DNA of 64,000 bases from Viridothelium virens (taxonomy: Eukaryota; Ascomycota; Dothideomycetes; Trypetheliales; Trypetheliaceae), in NCBI GenBank assembly GCA_010094025.1, contig ML991858.1:34606-98605 (forward strand), in the 5' to 3' direction. The notes under the pieces were generated by a model. It saw nothing but the letters and a program-made list of their open reading frames with translations. It was not told the DNA's origin and did not search any database. Position 1 is the first letter of the stretch, and every line of letters begins with the position of its first letter. The translations under genes and the position numbers were made by a program. Positions 5,325 to 51,544 of this stretch are shown piece by piece.

Positions 5325-8300
5325 AAATAGATGTAGCGCCCACTTATTTCTTTTTGTTGATGTCTTTCGTTAATTCTGGTATGATGAGAGCTACGGAAGC
5401 GGACGGAAATTAGATGTGGTCAAAGCTGAGGATCCAACAGATTGTCACCATTTTCAACCGCTAGAGATTCATAACTATCATTCGAGACTAGAGAAGGGAA
5501 CGCTTTCTTTTACTCTCAGAAGACGACTGTGTTTATCCGCTGACTGTAATCTCTCTGTCTTTGTCAGCGAACACTTGACTCAGAAACCGCGATATCTCTA
5601 TTATCATCCTTCATCCCATTGGTGATCTTCTTGACATGCACCTGAGGTACGCTTACACTAGTCATTAAAGCGAGCGTACGCTTAATAACGTCTAGCAGAT
5701 CTGCTAGATGCCAGATGTTTGTCTAATATCTGGTGGGGTCGACCGGGGCCTCCGTCCCCTGGTCTACCACTACTGTGGATATCATTTGGTTTGCAGCCCA
5801 TGTAACGGATGTCCACCTACTGATTTGATGTTGTAACAAACAACTGAATGGGTGGTGAAAGCTTATAGATTAAGCTATGGAGGCAAGGATATCTATATAC
5901 GTAGCCAATTCACGAACCTCACTCCTATTCACGTGATAGGATTGCCAATTTCCTCATAAGATTGCCTTCTCACACATCACATGCAACATCATGATTGCGC
6001 CCAAATCTACAAATGACAGGCGATAAATATCCCCGCATCTGGCGCTGAAATGATCGCAGTGTGCAGTGCATTGTGTTACAGACTTTCCATCAAAGTAAAA
6101 ACAATAGCTACTGCAAGGTGAGCAAATAGGCAACGAGATTCTTGGCTAGGGAAGAGATTGCAGCGACGTTGGGACGCCCTCAGCACTCTGCATCATCTGA
6201 GGTGCAGAGGCTGAGTGGGCGTAGAAGAAGATTGGGCAAAGCTTACGGAGAAAGCGGTTCTGTTCGATCTACCCATGGCTAAATGGAACAGTGAGTGGCT
6301 ATGGCCCCCAGTAACGCGGCGATAAGCATTAGAAGACAAAGCGGTTCGTCGTGGTTGGAAAAAGCGATGCAGACCCAGAACGACAACTCTCCAAAAGCTG
6401 TTTTCACATGGACTACGTGGATGAATGGGTCGCATAGATATCCCTGTCGACTTCAAAGGTTGCTTCATCAATGATTAACAGGCGTCAAATTAGGAAGCTC
6501 GCCTATTTTCGTGGAGACAACCCTGCTGCGAGACGCGTAGGCAGAAACATATCACTTTTGCTGCTCCTCTACAAGCCTTATCCTTTCCGCCGAAGTGTTT
6601 CGCCTCGCTTGCATGTGTTCTGATGAGTCTCCGTCCGGGTAGGCATCAAATCAAACCGAAAACAGAGTGCTTTTGCTACGTTACGCGCAAATAGCGGTAA
6701 GTCGGGCCCGCGTTTCTCATGAGGTCACTACATGATGTTCCAATACCTTCGCTAGTTGAGATCAGTAGTAATCCCACTTGACATTAAGGGAGCTCTCGCA
6801 CGGGTTAGCGGCTAACCAAATACTACTCTTGCAGCTCTAGTCATCGTCCGATCACCCGTGACGAGGTCACCCACCTTATCTTTATGTTTTCGTATGTGAA
6901 GAATAGCGTTACTTGGAAAGATGACTTCGAGTGTCGTTACTAGAGAAAGGAAAAGGGAGCTAGGTACCATTGTCCAGTTATGGACGATTCAAACGTTTGA
7001 AAAAAAGGTAAAGTGATCCAGTCTGACGCTCGCAAGACTTGTTCTCCCAGACCCGGTTTTTCCCTTTACTATCTGGCAGTATTCCTACACCCCGTGGAGG
7101 CGATATGTTTGCATTAGAGGAGATGCACAAAGAAAGTGAACCAGTAAGCTATTGACGTTAGTCGCCTTTCTTATCATCAGTCAGAGGCGGACCATCTCAA
7201 TGTTACAGACTTTCCAGGGCAACGGCGTTGATTACAATCTAGTGAATCCCCTCTATTCACGCGAGCACGCCATTGTTATCACATGCGCAATCATTCTGCT
7301 GTTGCCACTACTGCATCTGCCGGTAATACTTTATTTTCATCTCTTGTCAATCCTAACTTGCTTTCCGAGCCAACAGACAAGAAACACGCCGTACCCGCCC
7401 ACAGGCGGTCAAGTTAGCGGTAGATATGATGGTAGCTTTGCTCGTTGCATCAGAGTACCGCCTTGAATCTAATGGAATGAGGGAAAAAGACCAATTATTA
7501 AATAACATCGAGACATATAATCGAACGATTTAGCAAGTCAATCATACTCATAGAGTGGGAACAATGTGGACACTAACGCTGAGGTTTACTCGGAGTTAAA
7601 GGTGACCGGCATGGAGAGCTGAGGGTTGTGGACGCATTTACCTTCGCATTGTCCCCATCTGGCAATCCTATTAGTCTGAAGGCTAAATAGCACGGCTTTG
7701 CTCCGCTTACCAGCAATAGCGATCGTGGCCAGTTCCATCAAATAGATGCATATGCATAGGCGTTTCCAGCGACTTCAGGGGTGTGGAGAGAAACCAGAAA
7801 TGAAACTGGGGACTACGCTTACTTTTCTCCGTGAAGGGGACGGCGAGGAGGAAGCTGAATAGGGGATTTTCAGTGCAAAGGGCATTAAACTTTTTACGGT
7901 AATGGTGGACTCTGACTAAACTATTACAAGCTGTACTTGAGAGTGTTACTTGAATAGAAATCGATAGTACTAGTGGATGGCAACAGGAAATTCTGGACGG
8001 GTCTTGAAAGGTTAAGATCTTGACATGGATCATGTAGAGTACGACTAAGTTGTATTAAGCTTTGATGGGGCAACAAAGAAAAACTTAAAAATTAGACATT
8101 AAGAATTTGCCATTGTGCTTATCGAAGTCTTGAGGAGCTCTTCTTCGTTGTCCTTAAATAAGACATTGCTGCAGAGGCACTCCCACTGACAGTCGAGAGC
8201 GATATTTGTCGCCTCGTGCAGTGTTCACACTTCTTGATCTTACCCAATCTAGAATATTATAATCGCCTACGGACGTTCATCATCAGAGCTGAGTTATTTT

Positions 8301-10215
8301 CCGAAGGCAGGGTGAACTTTGAGAATATGCTGGACCCGGTACTCGTCATGCCCCTGTCTCCCAGTCTGGATAGGTGCAGCGCGGCAACGGGAGCGTCTTT
8401 GACTGCTGTACCATGTGTGTGGCGCAGAGTCTACTCGCATGCCCTCTTCAGTAAATATCCCCGAAGACACTATACCCGGCGCCGCCCCAACTAACGCGAA
8501 GGAGTCTATGTTTGGTCCATTGTGGCACCTGATTTGGAAACTTAACGTGGATGCACGGTGCGGTGGTTCCCAGCAAGCATGTAGGGCTGCAGGATTACTG
8601 CAAGATCGGGTGAAAGGGATACTAGACCTAGCGGTGGCCCTGCTCCAGATATGCCGACGTGGTTTTCGACAATAATAATCACCCTGCTTCGATGCCTTAA
8701 AGGGCCTTCCGATCAGGAGAATACGTTGCCTACCCCTACTTGAAACCAGAGCCGTGAAGAATTTGAGATGAATGTGTGTCGAAAATCAATATCTCCGAAG
8801 CCTTACCATTCGTAATGTACGGTAAGAAGGGCCACAAGGGCCCATGGACGGTAAGCCAGCAACCCAAGTACTTGATCATGCATCTTTCCTCGTCAACATC
8901 GTCGCTTTCATCCTTGTACATATGTGAGAAACATGACGGTCACGCCCAAAGCAACCGCCCGAGCCTGCGTCAGAAAGGGCTGAATCGGCTACTTCTCAAT
9001 CTTCATCAGCCAAATCACTCATGCTCCTTTTCTCTCCCCCTTCCTCTCTCTTCAAAGTATGCTAGCATACTGATTTCTGAAATAGTCAGCTCGAAGCCGA
9101 ATTTCACCGTTTTCTATTCTCATGCTTCTGTAAGCTTGAATACCACCTTCAGCCTTTCTTAGAAATTCTGGAACAAGTACTCTCCTAAGGCTTTCAACCC
9201 ATGTAGTATCACGATCCTTATCAAAGAACTCAGACGAGCTGACAAGACAACTCCTTAGATTCTTCATTCTGAGCTCTTAGCATACTTAGTCCAGCAGCTG
9301 CGTCTTCGCCACCGAACACTGCAACACTTGGTTTATCCCCACGGAAGGAATCAGCGGCCCCTTTCAATCGCTCTCCACTTCACCTATTCCCCAGCTTTCT
9401 CGCTACTGAGCTCCCCCCTTGCGATCCGGCATCGCCATCCAATGAATCATCGGGATGTTAACGCCAGAGCAATCCAAACACTGATCCCTGTCGCAAAAGC
9501 TGCGTCACCTTGCAATAGCTCGCAGTCCAAATCTTTGGCCAGTAGCCGGCTCGCTCTTCTATGAAATGTCACGAAGGACTTTCCAGAGTTTGCGAACTAT
9601 AAGAGGGGATGTACTCGAGACCAGCAGCCAAGAAGATATATAAGGAGATGTCCTAAACGAGTCAGTGATTTCAGGACGCTCCTAAGAACCGAGCGGTTTT
9701 GCAGCGGTTTTGCTAGGCTGTAACCCTGTATACTGTGTAGTTGGTGTAAAACTCGTGTGAATGCATCTCTCCCATTGGGAAAAGCATGTATGTTTGGAGT
9801 GACGGAGATACCCAAGTATGAACGGAGAGAAAGCTTATTGGAAAGGAGCTATAATCAGTGATGAGAAGGATGGTACTAAATTGATGCTCCACAATCAGGA
9901 GAGCGCTAGCTTTGCTCTGAAAGACTGGTAAACTTTTCTGCATTTCCGATTGCTTTTGCGGAGCAGTCCAAGCTTCACCATCAGTCCTTTTCAATACGTG
10001 TTGAGACTTTGTTTGTGACTGAGACACACTTATCAGTACCAGCCTCCTTTCGGAACCGCTGAAATATAAAACTATTGCCCTCAGTAGCCCACCAAGACAT
10101 CGTCATCAGGCTGCTTTTTTGCGCTTTCCAAGAGCCTGGATGATGCATCATCACGGTTCGCAAAAGTTCGAGCACAAACAAAAAGCTCTCATGACGGCTG
10201 TGAGCTATGAATACT
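5325..10215. other. 4.9-kb gene-poor stretch
   Basis: No open frame here exceeds about 130 codons and none shows a domain I recognise. Overlapping frames at 8216-8494 and 8415-8675 could be remnants of one gene, but no motif supports that. A frame at 7152-7466 contains a hydrophobic stretch, perhaps a relic of a membrane protein. The only structure I noted is the hairpin run at 5667-5770, listed separately. Base composition is similar to the neighbouring genes, so this is not an obvious AT-rich RIP island. Confidence 0.5.
5667..5770. repeat. Run of four adjacent inverted repeats (hairpin cluster)
   Basis: Four potential stem-loops follow each other in about 105 bp. First, ATTAAAGCG pairs with CGCTTAAT around a short loop near 5667-5687. 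Second, there is a perfect 18-nt palindrome at 5691-5708 (TCTAGCAGATCTGCTAGA). Third, CCAGAT at 5711-5716 pairs with ATCTGG at 5728-5733. Fourth, an imperfect GC-rich stem joins 5733-5748 to 5756-5770. No coding frame explains them. They could be a decayed mobile-element end, a structured RNA or a recombination-prone site; sequence alone does not decide. Confidence 0.5.
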
Positions 10216-38149: not shown

Positions 38150-40718
38150 CTAGAACCACCTCCTCTGCTCCAACTTCTCTTTCCTCCTTTCGGGCTCCAA
38201 CTCCTCCCTAGGCCCCTTGAACCTCAGAATCTCATCGTTAATGCCGATCCTCACGTCAATATCGAAAATGTTACTTGTCGCTGGTTCTGACCCTAGGCTA
38301 AAGCTGGCTCGTACTCTCACCCCACCCTTTCTTCCCTTAGCCGCAGAGCTCAGATGCTTGGCCACCATATCTCTCACCTGCCTCGCGAGCATGTCTGGCG
38401 CATACTTGCTCCGTAGCTGTGCCGCCCAGGCTCCATCTTCTTTCTCATCCCCAGACAATGGCACCAGCGCAGTCGAAGATGAATCTCGAGCATTGAGCCA
38501 ATAGTCGATAATCTCGCGATCCCGCCAGTCATCCTCAAAGAAGGTCAGGATCCACATCGACAGTACAAGCTGGCGAAGCGCATGGAAATGGCGCAAAGGA
38601 TAGAGGAAAGAGTCTGTGATCGCCGTCGGCGAGCCTAGGATTGGCGACCCCTGGTATCCGCAGAACTTGAGCTCTGTCACCGTCGCCGCATGGAGCGATG
38701 CAATCATATGAAGCATTGGCGGTTGCGGACCGGGTCCAAACGTGGGAACATAAGGCTCCTGCGGTGGCTGTAGCGGGCTTGACGCATAGCGCACAACGGT
38801 GTCGATGTCTTCCGCCTCGAGAAATTCGGACGCAGTGAGGAAGTGACCGTCCTCCAGGTGACCGATATCGTTACCATTCTCGCCCCAAGTGTTGCCGAGT
38901 GGAGAGGAGACGCCAATGGAGACGATACGCTGTAAGGGACAGTGACGCAGCGCACGCAGCGTTTCACGGCGTTCGTCCCGCGGGATGCAACCTTCGATTT
39001 TGACGTGGGCGACAGAGCGCATGCGGGAGGCGAAGTGGGTGATGAAGAGGCGGCGACGCTTGCGTTCGGCAAAGGACATGATCCGTTCGTCAACCTGGGA
39101 GTGGGGTTCGCCCTGGTCATTGTAACGGGCATCGATACGCAGGTCGATAATGGAAGTTGAGAGACTGTCGATTATTTGGTCGATGCGATTCCGTGTGTCG
39201 AGTGTCTCTTCGTACTGGGTGAAGAATTGAGCCATGGGCCAGCCGAGACACTTCAGGTTCCGGTGTGCTTCCATGAAGGCCAGGAATGATAGACCCAAGG
39301 TTCCGAACAATGGTACTAAATCGTGGACCAGTACGCCTCGCGTGACTGCGTTACGAAGCTGAAACGCGCGTAGATTTGGGAATCTAAGCCTTGATATATT
39401 CTCTAGAAGAGGCATAAATAAATGACCCTGACGAGCATATTTCTTATATGGATGGGAGACTAGAAAGACCCAGTCGAGGTTCAAGCTTGTCAACGTGGCC
39501 ATTGATCCAGCCAGAAGACTAGCCGCAAACTTTGCTGGGGCATTTTTCGCAGCTCGAAGACGTACCATTTGTCTGTAATTCTGTGCATTGTCCATCCAAA
39601 CAAGGTGTGCCCCCATCCCAGAAGGGTGTGCCTCGGGTAACACTTCCTGGTGGCTTGCGATATAATTGTAACCATCCTCGCTACTTACGAGCTCACTGAT
39701 CCCTGGAAGACTGTCATAGATGCGCGTATCGAAAGCTTTAGAAACGTCGAAGATTGTGCCAGGCCTGATGTAGTAGCCTCCCTCATCTAATCCAGGATCC
39801 AGAAGATCCCGACGATCCGGAACTTCCAAGGGTTTGTTGAACATTGAGATATCATATTCATCATGCAAGGTCGTATAGTACAAACCTCCTTTTCCATCAT
39901 GCATGGCCTGCTCTATACCTCCACGCATGAGTACTTTTCTTGTGGTAGCGTAGATGGGCGTAGGGGCAAGTCGCATACGCCTAAAGCGGACGACTTCCAG
40001 TCCGTCGAAATCGCACTGATCTTGCTCATGTTGGAATATGCCCTCTATGGAGCAATTTTCGAGCCATAGCCTTCTGATAGAGATATTACGAGGTCTATAC
40101 CGATCGAAGAATCCAGTTATTAGCTCAACCGTGAGAAGCCAATGCCCGTATAGAATCCTCAGGGTCTGTACGTTGACTAAGTTCCGAATTGCATGTTTCA
40201 AAAGACAAGCAAGTCGGATATCGGAAGATATAGTTGGACTCTTGAAAGGCATCTTTGGGAGTTCTTGGAAGCTATCCGGTGAAGGAAGGTGGCAGCGGTG
40301 CGTGAGTTCGACGACATGCTTTGCAATATGTGGGTGCCTGACAATCTATCAGTCGGATCAGAGGATTTGAATGTGTACTACTGACTTTGCGAAGATGAGC
40401 AACTTTCTTAGTATTGGAGTGTCATCATGTTCGTCTATGAGTGTCTCATTCTCGGGATCGTCGCCTTCTGTGTAAACTGTGGCGCGATCGTGAGGCGTTC
40501 TACAGTCGACAAGCTCCACAGATTTCCATATTCGTGGAGATGAATGGATATATAATCGTTTGGACACAAGACTTGTCTGGCAAAGGTCTTGCCGAGAAAG
40601 GTATTGGAAAATGCTTGATAAAAGCTCTTCAGGCAGATGCAGTAGCTATTTCGCATCAGTCACTGCTGAGAAAAGCTTGGCGGAGGAAATATACAGTTCC
40701 CGAAGCTTGACTAGCCAT
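38150..40718 (-). CDS. F-box protein, large fungal type
   Basis: F-box proteins recruit substrates to SCF ubiquitin ligases through Skp1. The model is complement(join(38150..40337,40386..40645,40695..40718)), 823 aa. The 24-nt first exon and introns of 49 and 48 nt are chosen because they restore an F-box right after the start: LHLPEELLSSIFQYLSRQDL near residues 10-30, followed by SLVSKRLY. Skipping the 48-nt intron would stop the frame after RKLLIFAK; splicing it continues with HPHIAKHVVELTHRCHLPSP, a phrase I associate with fungal F-box proteins. The remaining about 700 residues show leucine-rich, strand-like segments (ISIRRLWLENC, LTSLNLDWVF, VTELKFCGYQG) suggesting a degenerate LRR-like substrate domain. 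Residues near the end are charged. The substrate is unknown. Confidence 0.82.
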
Positions 40719-45076: not shown

Positions 45077-48000
45077 ATGAGAAGAAGAAAAGATGACGGC
45101 GGGAAGGGGTGGGAGAGACAGGGAGATGTGACCTTCTTGTACATACTTCGCAATCATCACGCCCAGTCGAGGCGGCTTGCATTGAATTTGTTGCGGAACC
45201 ATGTCTCGACTGCGTGAAATCCTCCTCGATCGAAGCTTCTATCCCTTGTCAAGTTGGGATGTTGTACACCGCCAATGATCACGTGCTGAGCTTGTCCCAT
45301 CTATATCTGCTGGTCCATGCACAACGGCCTTTTGCAACTTGGCAAGCCGGTGGAAGGATGGTGATCGTCGCTATCGTCGTAGAAAGCTCATTAGAGAGGG
45401 TGTAGTCGCCATTTCGAAGGTGAGAAACATGATGAGCGTGTCGTGTATGAACAAGCACTTTTCGTACGTTTCCAAAAATCTGCAGTTTTTGTAGCGGTAT
45501 CTTCATAGTTTGACATTGTCTTCTCTGCAACGAACCATGCTGCTTGCGCTGTTCCTCGGCCATAGTATTCCCATCATCGTTTTTCTTGTGAGATAGCCAC
45601 CTAAATACGGAGGTTAGAGTCCCAGCTTGAACAAGCCATCTCCCTTGGCATCAAAGTCATGATCTTGACCCCCTGGCTAAAATCCTCAGTCCTTTTCCAA
45701 TCCAAGTGCTACGCTGCCAGAGGGTCAATTGAATAGAAAGAGGCTGTGAGGCGAGGCTTCCGTGGGAAAGCTCAAGGAAATGGTTTAGTATGCTGTCGGT
45801 GTGGAAGCTTTCATTTCTAGAGTTAGTTAGTCGAAGGTCTGGGGAGGAAGAAATTTAGAGATTTACGACACCTTGAATTGCTATCGGCCAGCGTTTGTTT
45901 AGATAGCTAATCGACGCGCCTATTGCACAATGCTTCTGCCAGGCATAGAGTACCTAATCCTGGCATTCACGAAATTGCCATTCATGATCAATGATTCTTT
46001 CTGTCATGGATGTGACCGTGTCGCCCGTGTCCCGTGGCCGCGGCTGCCTGCCACTAAGCTATTGATGTCGGTGAGCATATCTACAATCACAGTCAATTCG
46101 TATGGTAGCGAATCTGTCCGCCCTGGGTTACCTACTGTTGTGGCACGTCATGCCTACTCCCTGTGGCCTAAGTCACGCGGGAAATCCGGACTCGGGAATG
46201 TGGCTTGCGATGAGCCGGCTGGCTGAGAGCATCCGTGGGAGAACAACAGTGCACCATCAACAGTGACGGTGGCTTGCTCTTCGTGCTCCTCGGGCTTCTC
46301 CATGGTGTCCCATTACGAGGAGAATGTAAACTCAGAGTGCTCGAAAGAAAGCTATGAGATCCCGCCTGTAGATATGAAGAATAAACACCACTCATCAAGG
46401 AAGGGCCAAACTTGATCCCGATACGTGAGCTTCATTGATTTGATTATGGGAGCGATTCTATATCACGAAGCAAGTAGATAGCCTGAAACTCCATGAAACA
46501 CTGCGTAATGGGTCGTGGCTTCTTTCGCGATCGCTACTGTTCTGCTCCACCTTGGGCCTTGCCACCATGCCATCACACAACTGCGTTTACCAAAGAGAAC
46601 TTCATGAAGCTTTCTTCCCCATATCCATGCTCAAGGCACAGCAAATGATGAAAAAGGGAAGGTCGCGTCAGCCCGAGGCAGTGCAAGACGGGCGACACTG
46701 TGGGTGGAAAGATGAGCAAGCTCAGCGCCAACCACCCAATTTCCAAAAATAGGTATAATCAATAAATGTGTCCGTAGACACGTTTCAGAGATTAAACTGA
46801 AAAGAACAGATACTACACTTGATCTGCAAAGGTTGTTAGCAAAAGGTGCGCAGGTGGTAATGGTGCATGGATGGTCACGTACCTAAGCCAAAAGGCAAAG
46901 AGAGCTAAAGAAAAGAAGAGAAGGTTGGAGTAGGAGGGGGGACCTGATAATATACTTGGGCATGGCGCTAGGCACTAGCGTAATTACATAAGCCGGCCGG
47001 CGGGGTGGCGGACTTGGTGGGACTGCTGCCTGCCCGTCAAAATATCACAGTGGGGCTAAATGAGGACCTCACCACTCTCACTTTCCACTCTCACCTCTCT
47101 TACTACCAAATCACGTGAAGTATAGCCATGCACTGGAGAACAGAGGGTCAGAACCTTCTGCCATCTTTAGAAAGGCAGTCGAAACTTTGATTCTACCCTA
47201 TTCAGTTTATATCGACCAAAGTGAGAAGTGAGATCATATTCAAGACCTCGATTGGGGATCCAATACCGAATTACGACTGTCAACAATCTCTTTCTGCTTC
47301 GCTTCGTCTGGAGAAATTTCACTCAGGATCTTTAATACTCCCGATGTCATCAAGTCTTGGCCCTTTTTATTCATTCCTCGCTGCCAGACCGCGTCATGTT
47401 ATCTAGATACGTCGCCAAAGTAACGAAATGCTTCCATATATACTCATTAGCCGTGCTTTTTCTCACTGAGCTACGCCAAGTAACTGCCAGGTTTGGACAC
47501 CGAAATTCATGATGAACACCTAGGCATGAAATAGAGGTCGTTGCTCCTAATTCGGCACACAATATCACGCGCCTCCTTTCGCAGCTAGTGGGCTAATTTC
47601 GAACGCCCACTACTGAAGCCCATTCTCGGGAAGCTAGGACATGATCCTAAGGGTCCGGCCCATCCTACCGTACCAGGCGTACCTACTGAGCAGCTTATTT
47701 TCAGGGGATCAAATTGAGAGGCCCAGGGTTGAGTGCCAAACCAACGATGCCAATTTTGCTTTCCCAAAAGTAGGCCGCACTCTCCCTTGCGTAAAGCTGA
47801 TAAATCCTCTTTATCATCGAAGTTAGGCGGCTGACATTATTGACTACGACGTAAGGGGGGGACTAGAAATGGGAGTAAGTCGATGTGAATCAATGTAAGT
47901 CGATTCTGATTAGACTGAGCCGCGCCTGAGCGACACGAGCCGTTGTGAATGCTCTGGATGAGGGCCTTCTCGTATCATCAAAGGGTTGTGGTATTCACGC

Positions 48001-48189
48001 CCTACTCCAGTGACTCAATAGGCCTACAAGTTGGAGATTGTGACATGCGCATGACATGCGTCAGACACAACCATTAAATGTCATAACTCGAAGCACAATC
48101 CTACTCTTCCAAGAAATTTTCTTTATAATCTTATGTTTTGAACTCATTTTCCACTAGAGAGAAATCCAATCTTCAAACCAGGATAGTGA
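45077..48189. other. 3.1-kb gene-poor stretch
   Basis: Open frames do not exceed 98 codons and none shows a motif. A GC-rich palindrome (GCCGGCCGGC) occurs near 46993-47002. A short direct repeat containing GTAAGTCGAT lies near 47875-47910. No mobile-element ends were found by eye. Confidence 0.5.
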
Positions 48190-48943
48190 ATCTTTGCTCA
48201 TGATGTTGTCGAGATACCGATATCTCGCATTATTGGCAATTTACTTCGAAAAAAATTTCCAAAACAAAACGAACCATATTACGACAGACTATCGACAAGC
48301 TTCTACACCTATGACAAATACTGGAGGAAAGGCGCAAGGCCCTTGCAGCTCAAAGCAGTCAACTGCTCGTGCGTGACACCCCTCGCCGCTCCATGTGATA
48401 TACACTTCTCCAAATATGAGGTGAAAGAGATGAAATGGAATTGCTTTGGGCGAAGGCTAATGGCGGACCAGGAATCAGCCAAGATTTGCCGGGAACTGCG
48501 ATGCGTGCAAGGCGAACTCGGGTCTGAGAAAATTGAGTGCTGATGAGAGTCAGCTCTGGATACAAATCCAGGACAGAAAAGCTCTGAGGACAGCACAGGA
48601 CATCTGGGGCAGGAGAGCCGCGCAGCAGGCGAGCGAGATCAATCAGGCTATCGGGGAAGTAAGGCGCGTTTCAGCAATGAGAAACAAAGGACAGAGGAGA
48701 CGCAAACAAAACGATTCCGAGGTGAGAATAAAGCGGCAAGTTGTCGTGGATATGATCATACACAAGGTAGACAACAGCCAGAGGGCCTTGAAGGATCATG
48801 AAGAGAGTGTAAAGAAGTCATACCGATCGGTGGTACACAGTGGACCACAAACCGGCAACTCCCTTTACTTCTGTTTCGATCATAGGCAAGAGTATGCTGA
48901 TCAAATTGGTACCGAAGTAATTCATTTCATAGGCTTATTGTGA
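48190..48943 (+). CDS. Tandem orphan family, copy A (possibly pseudogene; 5' end unresolved)
   Basis: This is the first of three paralogs of a family I do not recognise. The supported exons are about 48190-48368 and 48472-48943, joined by a 103-nt intron (donor GTGCGT, CTAAT branch, acceptor ACCAG). That intron is phase 2 and splits a Ser codon as TC|G. The junction lies in Cys-Ser-(8 residues)-Cys-Asp-Ala-Cys, aligning residue for residue with copies B and C. Upstream of the junction, an aromatic and basic stretch (FYTYDKYWRKGARPLQ) parallels the others. Exon 2 is Gln/Arg/Lys-rich and helical. Exon 1 is open back to TAG/TGA at 48184-48189 but contains no in-frame ATG; ATG 48200 and 48203 are in another frame. 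Either an upstream exon exists or the copy is decaying. Confidence 0.5.
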
Positions 48944-49339
48944 AGATTCTGACATGTGTGAGATCTTTGACAGTTCCATTCGCTGCAAGAAATTCTCAAT
49001 CATTGCCAACCTCCGCCAACAATCTATAGTCACGTGTCGGAGTTTCCTTGCGGTCACAAAATGTCACTACTTCTTGATAGTCAGCTTCCTATCGACCTTG
49101 AAACAGGAAATGCCTATCTCAAAAGTCATTCACGTTCCTCTTGATGTTATTCTTTGTCCTAGGAAGGGTACAAGTGTTTCTGGTGGAGTCACCTCTCGTG
49201 AACCGGTCCGAAGTCATGGACGATGCTTTGCATGGCTCCTATATCCTCACAATGGCTTCAAGCACCACTAGAACATATTCTAGCCTCTTTGTCTTGACCG
49301 AACTTTGACACCTCACCTTTCGAAGAACCCAGCTACACT
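48944..49339. other. Spacer between copies A and B
   Basis: A 105-codon frame at 48954-49271 has no motif. The segment should contain the end of copy A's transcript and the promoter of copy B. Confidence 0.4.
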
Positions 49340-49970
49340 ATGGGCAACAAGCAAAGCAAAGCTTCAGACAATCACCAATGCCACGTGGCTCTGAATCGAA
49401 TGATAAACAGGTACATTTACTACTTGGTGCACGGCCGAGACACCATTGAATTTGATCCAATCTCTTGTCCGTACGTAGCATACTAATACTTCAACCAATA
49501 CGCATCTTACCCTGGAAGATTGATAGCGGCCATTGGTCGAAATTCCCTAAAATGGTTACTGACGAGCGGCTAGGCAATTGCGGATCACAGGGCGCGACTG
49601 CAGTGCATGCCACGCCAGGGGCGAGATGACTCGACTGAGCCAGGAGAAGTTCGACTTCCTGCGGCGTATCCCGCGCGCACAGTCAGCAAAAGAGATGGCC
49701 GAGGCGATTTCCGTTAACCTTAGCTCGGATAAAAATAGACAGCTGGTTAGCAAGTATCTTCAGAGAGAGCTGCAGCTTTTGGACGAACTACCGGAGTCAA
49801 CCACGCAAGAGGAGCTACAGCTAATACAGAGCCAAATAGAAGCAGTGCAAGCTGAAAAATTGAATGAACTTTGGGCCTTCATTAAGGAGTGTGATAGCAT
49901 GCTTGGAGAAGTGCGTCAATTGGTCGACTCATCTGGAATTGGTCGACAGCCAACGCAAGTTCGGCGTTGA
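49340..49970 (+). CDS. Tandem orphan family, copy B, with N-myristoylation motif
   Basis: The model is join(49340..49470,49574..49970), 175 aa. The 103-nt intron (GTACGT...CTGACGAGCGGCTAG) is phase 2 and splits a Pro codon as CC|G, just as in copies A and C. The protein begins MGNKQSK, a textbook N-myristoylation signal (Gly2, Ser6, Lys7), so it may sit on membranes once the initiator Met is removed. Exon 1 ends in the family pattern Cys-Pro-(8)-Cys-Ser-Ala-Cys (SCPQLRITGRDCSAC across the junction). The rest is an alpha-helical, Glu/Gln/Leu-rich coiled-coil-like region (QLVSKYLQRELQLLDELP). There is no signal peptide or transmembrane helix. I know no related domain. Confidence 0.65.
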
Positions 49971-50622
49971 TGAGATGGGGAGATAATGCAGGCGAGATTG
50001 TGTATCGGGTCCTGAAGCACAGCTGCACCCGTGCGTTTAGCCAGGGAGGTCTGGACTCGCCTGGCTAGTCGTTTGGCATTCACCAGACGGGCGTGAGATC
50101 TTCTGGCAAGGCTTGTTTGTGAGTTGGATGACCTACTCGATCTCAAGGGTCACTAGTTTTCCTGCAAATATTCCAAGATTAAATGTAATGCGCATGACTT
50201 TTGTATGAGCTATTAGTCCTATCATCGTGCTTGTGATTCACTCTCTGGGGGCTCCTTGACTCGCGAGTAGGTGACGCTCGTCAGCTAAGATCGAGTCCGT
50301 TGAAAGCCGAATCTAGTAAGTGATAGGCTCAAGGAGCTCTCGTTGACCATACAGTGGCCTGTTTTCAATGGATTTCATGCGAGAAGCCGATGCTGACTCC
50401 ATGCGACAATAAGGCGTGAGCTTCGGGTGACCAACATGAGCAATAATAGTCATATCGGTAGTTGACGGCTACGGAGTTGTGACAGACATCGATCCAGGGT
50501 AGATAAGCGTCGAGCGATTCCTCATCATAATTTCTTTTCCCTAGAAATACTACTCCACTACTTTCAATCGTACCTTTCCAGGAAGATCAAGAGACGTTTT
50601 AGGGGAGCGCTCAACTTACTCC
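49971..50622. other. Spacer between copies B and C
   Basis: No gene is supported. A minus-strand frame at 49916-50146 overlaps the end of copy B and shows no motif. Confidence 0.45.
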
Positions 50623-51544
50623 ATGATGAGTAACGCATCTGATAAGGAATCCGAAGCGCCAGTTCCACTGCACCATGACCCATGCTTTCGTAGGCTTCGT
50701 AAATTCTTCGATTATTACCGCAAGTTCAGCAACGAAGGACCTTCTACGTTCGACGGACGCATGCATGAGCCCCTGACTATTTGCCCGTAAGTTATTTTCT
50801 CGCCGTCCGGCTGTCTTTCACCACATGTTGCCTCCGCAAAGCAGGGCAATGCGATTGATTAATATAAGGCATGTAACATATGAACTGACTATTTGAAGGT
50901 TTATGAGCACCCTTGGCGGCCAATGCAGTTCGGAAACGCTCAAACGTAAGCTGCTGAACCATATGCTTCAAGAATTAGAAGTCTGGACGGAAATGGGCGA
51001 GATTGGTTCTCAGCTTGAGGATGAAACCACTCGCCGCCGTCGTTCCTTGTTCCGGAAAACATCGAAGGACCTCCGAAGTGAGTTTCATGAGGAGATGACG
51101 CTGGAATCCCTGGAATCCAAAATGAGAGATGCCAAGCCAGGAAGTAAGACTGTAGAAAATTACAGTCGTGAGCTTAAAAGAGCCCGGGGAAAAGTTCTTC
51201 TGGAGTTCGGCCGCTTCCTGAGAGACAACGAGAACGACATGGAGAATTGGCGTTCGGTTACCGAGAAGGCTATCAATGAATGCTTGGCAAAGGAAATCAA
51301 AGCTTTGATGCAGGCGGAGATGATTCCTAACGAGCAAAAGACTGCCCCGAACGAGCAAAAGACTGCTCCGAACGAGCAAAAGACTGCCCCGAACATACCA
51401 AAATCCAAGACCAAGGTTTCGAAAGATGTAGAAAAGCAGTCTGGAACTGTAACCAAGAAGAGTCTACCTACTCCAGGACAACGTGTGATGGAAAGGCAAA
51501 AGCCCAAGGGAGCAGGTAGCTCAAGCGAGCATGCTAGAAAATAA
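50623..51544 (+). CDS. Tandem orphan family, copy C, with three 21-bp repeats
   Basis: The model is join(50623..50786,50899..51544), 269 aa. The 112-nt intron (GTAAGT...CTGACTATTTGAAG) is phase 2 and splits a Pro codon as CC|G. The junction gives Cys-Pro-(8)-Cys-Ser-Ser-Glu, so the last Cys of the A/B motif is lost. Exon 1 has the aromatic and basic segment seen in the paralogs (RRLRKFFDYYRKF). Exon 2 is a long charged helical region (DLRSEFHEEMTLESLESKM), then three perfect or near-perfect NEQKTAP repeats at 51329-51391, then a basic Ser/Lys-rich tail that copy B lacks. No signal peptide or known domain is present. Copies B and C are both intact by my reading. Confidence 0.68.
51329..51391 (+). 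repeat. Three tandem 21-bp repeats inside copy C
   Basis: The unit AACGAGCAAAAGACTGCCCC(G) occurs three times head to tail with one third-position difference, encoding NEQKTAP each time. The repeat keeps the frame, so length polymorphism between strains would be tolerated. Confidence 0.9.

Follow-up and report, generated by a model that had tools for sequence, protein, structure and literature searches.

What does an intron at the same place in three neighbouring frames reveal about their origin, and what would the ancestral gene have encoded? The window (the whole stretch of DNA analysed, 64,000 nucleotides; C88:34606-98605) runs to the end of its 98.6-kb contig, in a genome of 30.7 Mb on 175 contigs. 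Its gene content includes a U2 snRNA, a GH5 cellulase, PBDC1, and an ABC transporter. Together with the 56-66 nt introns of PBDC1, these genes would suit a filamentous ascomycete. Between the U2 snRNA and PBDC1 genes lie three frames, A, B, and C, all on the plus strand. Each carries its intron at the same spot in one cysteine-bearing segment, which makes it most likely that all three descend from a single gene copied long ago. We give a probability of about one half to the reading that they arose through ancient tandem duplication of a small fungal gene with two exons.

The array and its shared intron

The features of the locus are as follows.

46657-46908, minus strand: U2 spliceosomal RNA gene (121.2 bits)
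48190-48368, plus strand: A exon 1 reading frame, open after the TGA at 48187-48189, without an in-frame ATG
48369-48471, plus strand: A phase-2 intron, 103 nt, GTGCGT...CTAAT...CAG
48472-48943, plus strand: A exon 2, CxxC and charged tail, to the stop
49340-49470, plus strand: B exon 1, ATG at 49340, starting MGNKQSK
49471-49573, plus strand: B phase-2 intron, 103 nt, GTACGT...CTGAC...TAG
49574-49970, plus strand: B exon 2, to the stop (whole product, 175 residues)
50623-50786, plus strand: C exon 1, ATG at 50623, starting MMSNASDKES
50787-50898, plus strand: C phase-2 intron, 112 nt, GTAAGT...CTGAC...AAG
50899-51544, plus strand: C exon 2, to the stop (whole product, 269 residues)
51329-51394, plus strand: in-frame tandem repeat in C, 21-nt unit (seven residues), 3.1 copies
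52081: ATG of the PBDC1 gene

Two observations concern the surroundings. The U2 snRNA match, 252 nt against a 192-position model, exceeds the family consensus in length; and on the minus strand, positions 38150-40252 hold an open frame of 700 residues that matches nothing in Pfam at E 0.01.

The intron lengths, phase, codon splits, and cysteine spacing first read from the DNA were confirmed in all three frames. The split codons are TC|G in A and CC|G in B and C; the junctions read CSNQPRFAGNCDAC (A), CPQLRITGRDCSAC (B), and CPFMSTLGGQCSSE (C), and share the motif Cys-[Ser/Pro]-8-Cys-x-x-[Cys/Glu]. The donors are GTGCGT, GTACGT, and GTAAGT, and matches to a CTRAY branch site (CTAAT, CTGAC, and CTGAC) lie 12, 12, and 11 nt before the intron end. 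The AAG acceptor of the C intron is of an uncommon kind; A has an alternative acceptor 12 nt further downstream, ending at 48483. The description of these introns as about twice the usual length is fair against PBDC1 alone, whose four hand-placed introns measure 64, 66, 57, and 56 nt.

Starts and stops are clear in B and C, and codon-usage support is highest for C and lowest for A. Scored beside 78 non-coding frames (mean -0.046), C exon 2 reaches 0.165, a value attained by 3 of those frames; B exon 2 follows at 0.084 (4/78), then A exon 2 at 0.057 (11/78) and C exon 1 at 0.054 (11/78). The first exons of A (-0.016; 26/78) and B (-0.060; 40/78) look non-coding, and because first exons are short their scores say little. 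The length of the C repeat unit, 21 nt, is divisible by three. No RIP signature survives in the array, where the composite index is -0.68 against a mean of -0.57 (127 one-kb windows, none above 0). Together, the in-frame repeat and the absence of this signature suit expressed genes that have diverged better than an array decaying throughout by mutation. B and C probably are expressed genes. (The repeat, at 51329-51394, is possibly variable in length among strains.)

The missing start of A

The original prediction of three neighbouring genes with a common intron stands for the junctions; for A as a complete gene it is not confirmed. The A frame opens at 48190 because a TGA ends at 48189, and from there to the intron it contains no in-frame ATG (an ATG-bearing frame in another register overlaps exon 1). 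Nor, for intron lengths of 45-200 nt and a GT[AG]NG or GTNNGT donor, does any ATG-bearing exon at 47700-48200 connect to it. The start may have been lost or be non-AUG, a frameshift or a sequence or assembly error may hide it, or the first exon may be of an unusual kind.

One explanation compatible with shared origin is that A is a decayed copy, a pseudogene whose start is gone, leaving just B and C as genes. We regard this as a serious prospect, a little short of even odds. It accommodates both the lack of an in-frame ATG or ordinary upstream exon and the codon usage of A, non-coding-like in exon 1 and slightly better in exon 2. However, the splicing signals of A, its junction motif, and an exon 2 frame of 160 codons are all intact, and an assembly error or unusual first exon would explain the missing ATG equally well. 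The long second exon by itself proves little, since open runs of 160 codons arose in 72 of 1000 simulated 4.6-kb stretches.

How far the likeness goes

The CxxC form of the junction pattern with a CAG or TAG acceptor occurs twice in the window (A and B), whereas 100 simulated windows contain no instance; dropping the last Cys gives a simulated mean of 0.06 per window. (C falls outside both patterns because of its AAG acceptor.) The strict motif was set after the data were seen, so these counts flatter it; an all-against-all ranking is the fairer test. Candidate introns were defined by a GT[AG]NG donor, an [ACT]AG acceptor with CTRAY upstream, a length of 45-150 nt, and a frame open for 35 codons ahead of the junction and for 32 beyond it. 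Both strands of the 98.6-kb contig yield 117 such introns, including those of A, B, and C, each open in just one phase. When the 117 spliced peptides are compared in 6662 pairs, leaving out places less than 400 nt apart, A-B ranks first, A-C eighth, and B-C twenty-third; with A's alternative acceptor, A-C rises to third.

Shuffling points the same way. Global alignment scores are reached by 0 (A-B), 0 (A-C), and 16 (B-C) of 2000 shuffles, and scores of the coding DNA at the junction by 3, 0, and 0 of 300 mononucleotide shuffles, which do not keep codon structure. The introns show no likeness (686, 121, and 868 of 1000 shuffles reach the A-B, A-C, and B-C scores), and neither do the 300 nt upstream (260, 31, and 134 of 300). 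Likeness in coding DNA, but in neither introns nor upstream sequence, is expected if the protein segment alone was kept. The tails likewise have no significant mutual similarity (537, 537, and 175 of 1000 shuffles).

Could the likeness be an artefact of how frames and splice sites were chosen, with A, B, and C unrelated? Over the aligned products, C is just 18% and A 16% identical to B, and alignment A2 of the junction segment retains five invariant positions (L, Y, G, C, and C) in 71 columns. Leave-one-out profiles built from two of the genes place the third at the top of the contig frames in one of nine tests (C, E 1.6) and at rank 8 in two; six return nothing, and unrelated frames score higher in most. 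B-C similarity is weak by both rank and shuffling. Nevertheless, every junction is open in a single phase, and A-B still comes first of 6662 equally selected pairs; we therefore judge an artefact unlikely. Tandem duplication remains our preferred reading, at a strength that differs among the pairs: with the likeness confined to about 70 residues and profile recovery weak, the sequences make A and B likely paralogues, and C a probable one. The proposal of a local tandem family is thus borne out for the junction domain, best for A-B and least for B-C. Its divergence may reflect rapid evolution or simply great age.

Searches for relatives

Queried by tblastn at E up to 10 with the A, B, and C products (residues 1-196 of 269 for C) and with the first-exon segment of C, the 30.7-Mb genome returned the query loci alone. 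The same method fails to link A, B, and C to one another, so distant copies could escape it. Two junction patterns used for a genome search took B as their template, and neither of them fits A or C. One recovered B alone; the other recovered B and two further places, both of which lack the second half of the motif, and a reversed control pattern also gave one match.

A plus-strand frame at 8255-8353, YYNRLRTFIIRAELFSEGRVNFENMLDPVLVMP, shows some likeness to the exon 1 segment of A-C (E 0.086). It is the best non-self match in the contig with the full and first-exon profiles, two of the three used. Inspection revealed no second exon, and the genome held no other match. A decayed fourth copy is possible, as is a chance resemblance.

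That the frames contain no known domain holds within Pfam-A and NCBIfam (A, B, and C), PHROGs (B and C), and PDB sequences (B and two profiles). Nothing exceeded the cut-off for A, B, or C in Pfam-A or NCBIfam, or for the junction pieces in Pfam. Several weak matches were judged to be chance. In Pfam these were DUF7455 for A (E 0.0013; 18.6 bits where 27 are needed), HEAT_PSME4_mid (E 0.053) and DUF2433 (E 0.16) for B, and Retrotrans_gag (E 0.032) for C, all below cut-off; the best NCBIfam match (E 0.013) also fell below cut-off. The best in PHROGs had E 0.022, and the best among PDB sequences had E 0.03 (B) and 0.19 (profile A1). Profile A2 matched no PDB sequence; profile A2 and C exon 2 found no relative in viral contigs, nor did B in prokaryote genomes. 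The junction piece of B weakly resembles zf-nanos (PF05741; E 0.044), but its 14.5 bits lie under the 27-bit cut-off, and the pieces of A and C have no match.

Comparison with DUF3716 and secreted effectors

DUF3716 is a fungal cysteine domain of unknown function; the genome search confirmed its accession, PF12511. The search found six places, five of them over the 22-bit cut-off and none in the window. The contigs carrying four of those five measure 17-22 kb, and three of the five stand in AT-rich DNA. Our literature search found no papers on this domain.

Might the junction segment be a reduced, diverged half of DUF3716? The two share a GxCxxC and a genome that carries the domain at five places over cut-off, and one copy, L018, has a further Cys about ten residues upstream (C-x10-C-x2-C-K, against C-x9-C-x2-C-K in A). 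However, the full cysteine set, CxxC ... C ... GxCxNC ... C, is absent from A, B, and C when A2 is compared with alignment A3 of five copies: the first CxxC, the PF-x-x-C, and the last Cys are missing. The three copies read for introns (L018, L019, and L022) have none at the corresponding place. Moreover, hhalign gives a probability of 1.6% over just 13 columns, the DUF3716 profile ranks A, B, and C at 11, 14, and 7 among the 89 candidate peptides listed, and Pfam scans list the domain for none of them. We consider this derivation very improbable.

Three of the DUF3716 copies contain in-frame stops: L018 on contig C156 (GC 0.36, TpA/ApT 1.26, composite index 0.31), L020 on C61 (0.35, 1.15, and -0.04), and L021 on C144 (0.30, 1.35, and 0.38). 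Judged by composition, they could be RIP-mutated relics in AT-rich DNA.

Least probable of all is a secreted effector-like family: a report (PMC3582587) describes powdery mildew CSEPs and RNase-like effector candidates as highly diverged paralogues recognised through one common intron position, the same logic as here, but the array has three genes, Pfam scans give no RNase family match, and by inspection the N-termini of B (MGNKQSK) and C (MMSNASDKES) are polar and appear unlike signal peptides. The Y/F/WxC motif of CSEP-like secreted effectors, named in the title of PMC2886064, is absent by inspection ([YFW]-x-C, up to the junction) from the B and C translations.

A possible function

Two cysteines of the motif are invariant in all three frames; the third occurs in two, and is Glu in C. 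No set of four conserved Cys/His, as in a four-ligand zinc finger, is present. Such a site is not conserved, because Glu takes the place of the last Cys in C, and A exon 1 has no further Cys or His near the motif. Two invariant cysteines with a third in two of three frames are more in keeping with a small knuckle that binds a metal or a partner than with a complete zinc finger.

The tails were expected to be charged, helical, and strongly diverged. Charge and divergence (no significant mutual similarity) are evident, and helicity appears in low-confidence models of B and C. AlphaFold2, given single sequences, predicts helices for B exon 2 (mean pLDDT 52.7, low) and for the first 138 residues of C exon 2 (62.1, also low). 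The helical moment was reached by 17, 18, and 75 of 500 shuffles for A, C, and B, respectively.

We infer a cytosolic ancestral protein in which a short cysteine motif lay towards the N terminus, followed by a long, charged tail that was helical and perhaps a coiled coil. The C-x9-C-x2-C motif would probably bind a metal ion or a partner, and the tail probably would self-associate or hold a partner. The start of B, MGNKQSK, presumably fits the usual N-myristoylation rule, and B may be tethered to membranes in this way. The most likely kind of function, yet a doubtful one, is that of a helical adaptor bearing a cysteine knuckle, each functional step being our own conjecture. More broadly, but still tentatively, the array could represent a new small family in which an N-terminal C-[PS]-x8-C-x-x-[CE] segment sits on a rapidly changing helical tail, its tandem members diverging as adaptors, one of them membrane-tethered.

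Implications

To call the array an undescribed system goes too far: it offers nothing beyond three small genes that would bind them into a system, and one of these, A, is possibly a pseudogene. As a small tandem family of diverged members, the array is nothing out of the ordinary. Fungal genomes commonly contain such families with no known relatives, and given how common they are this array by itself changes little. If real, it would illustrate that a shared intron can betray common origin once likeness in protein sequence is nearly gone, and it would provide a short seed motif for finding relatives in other fungi.
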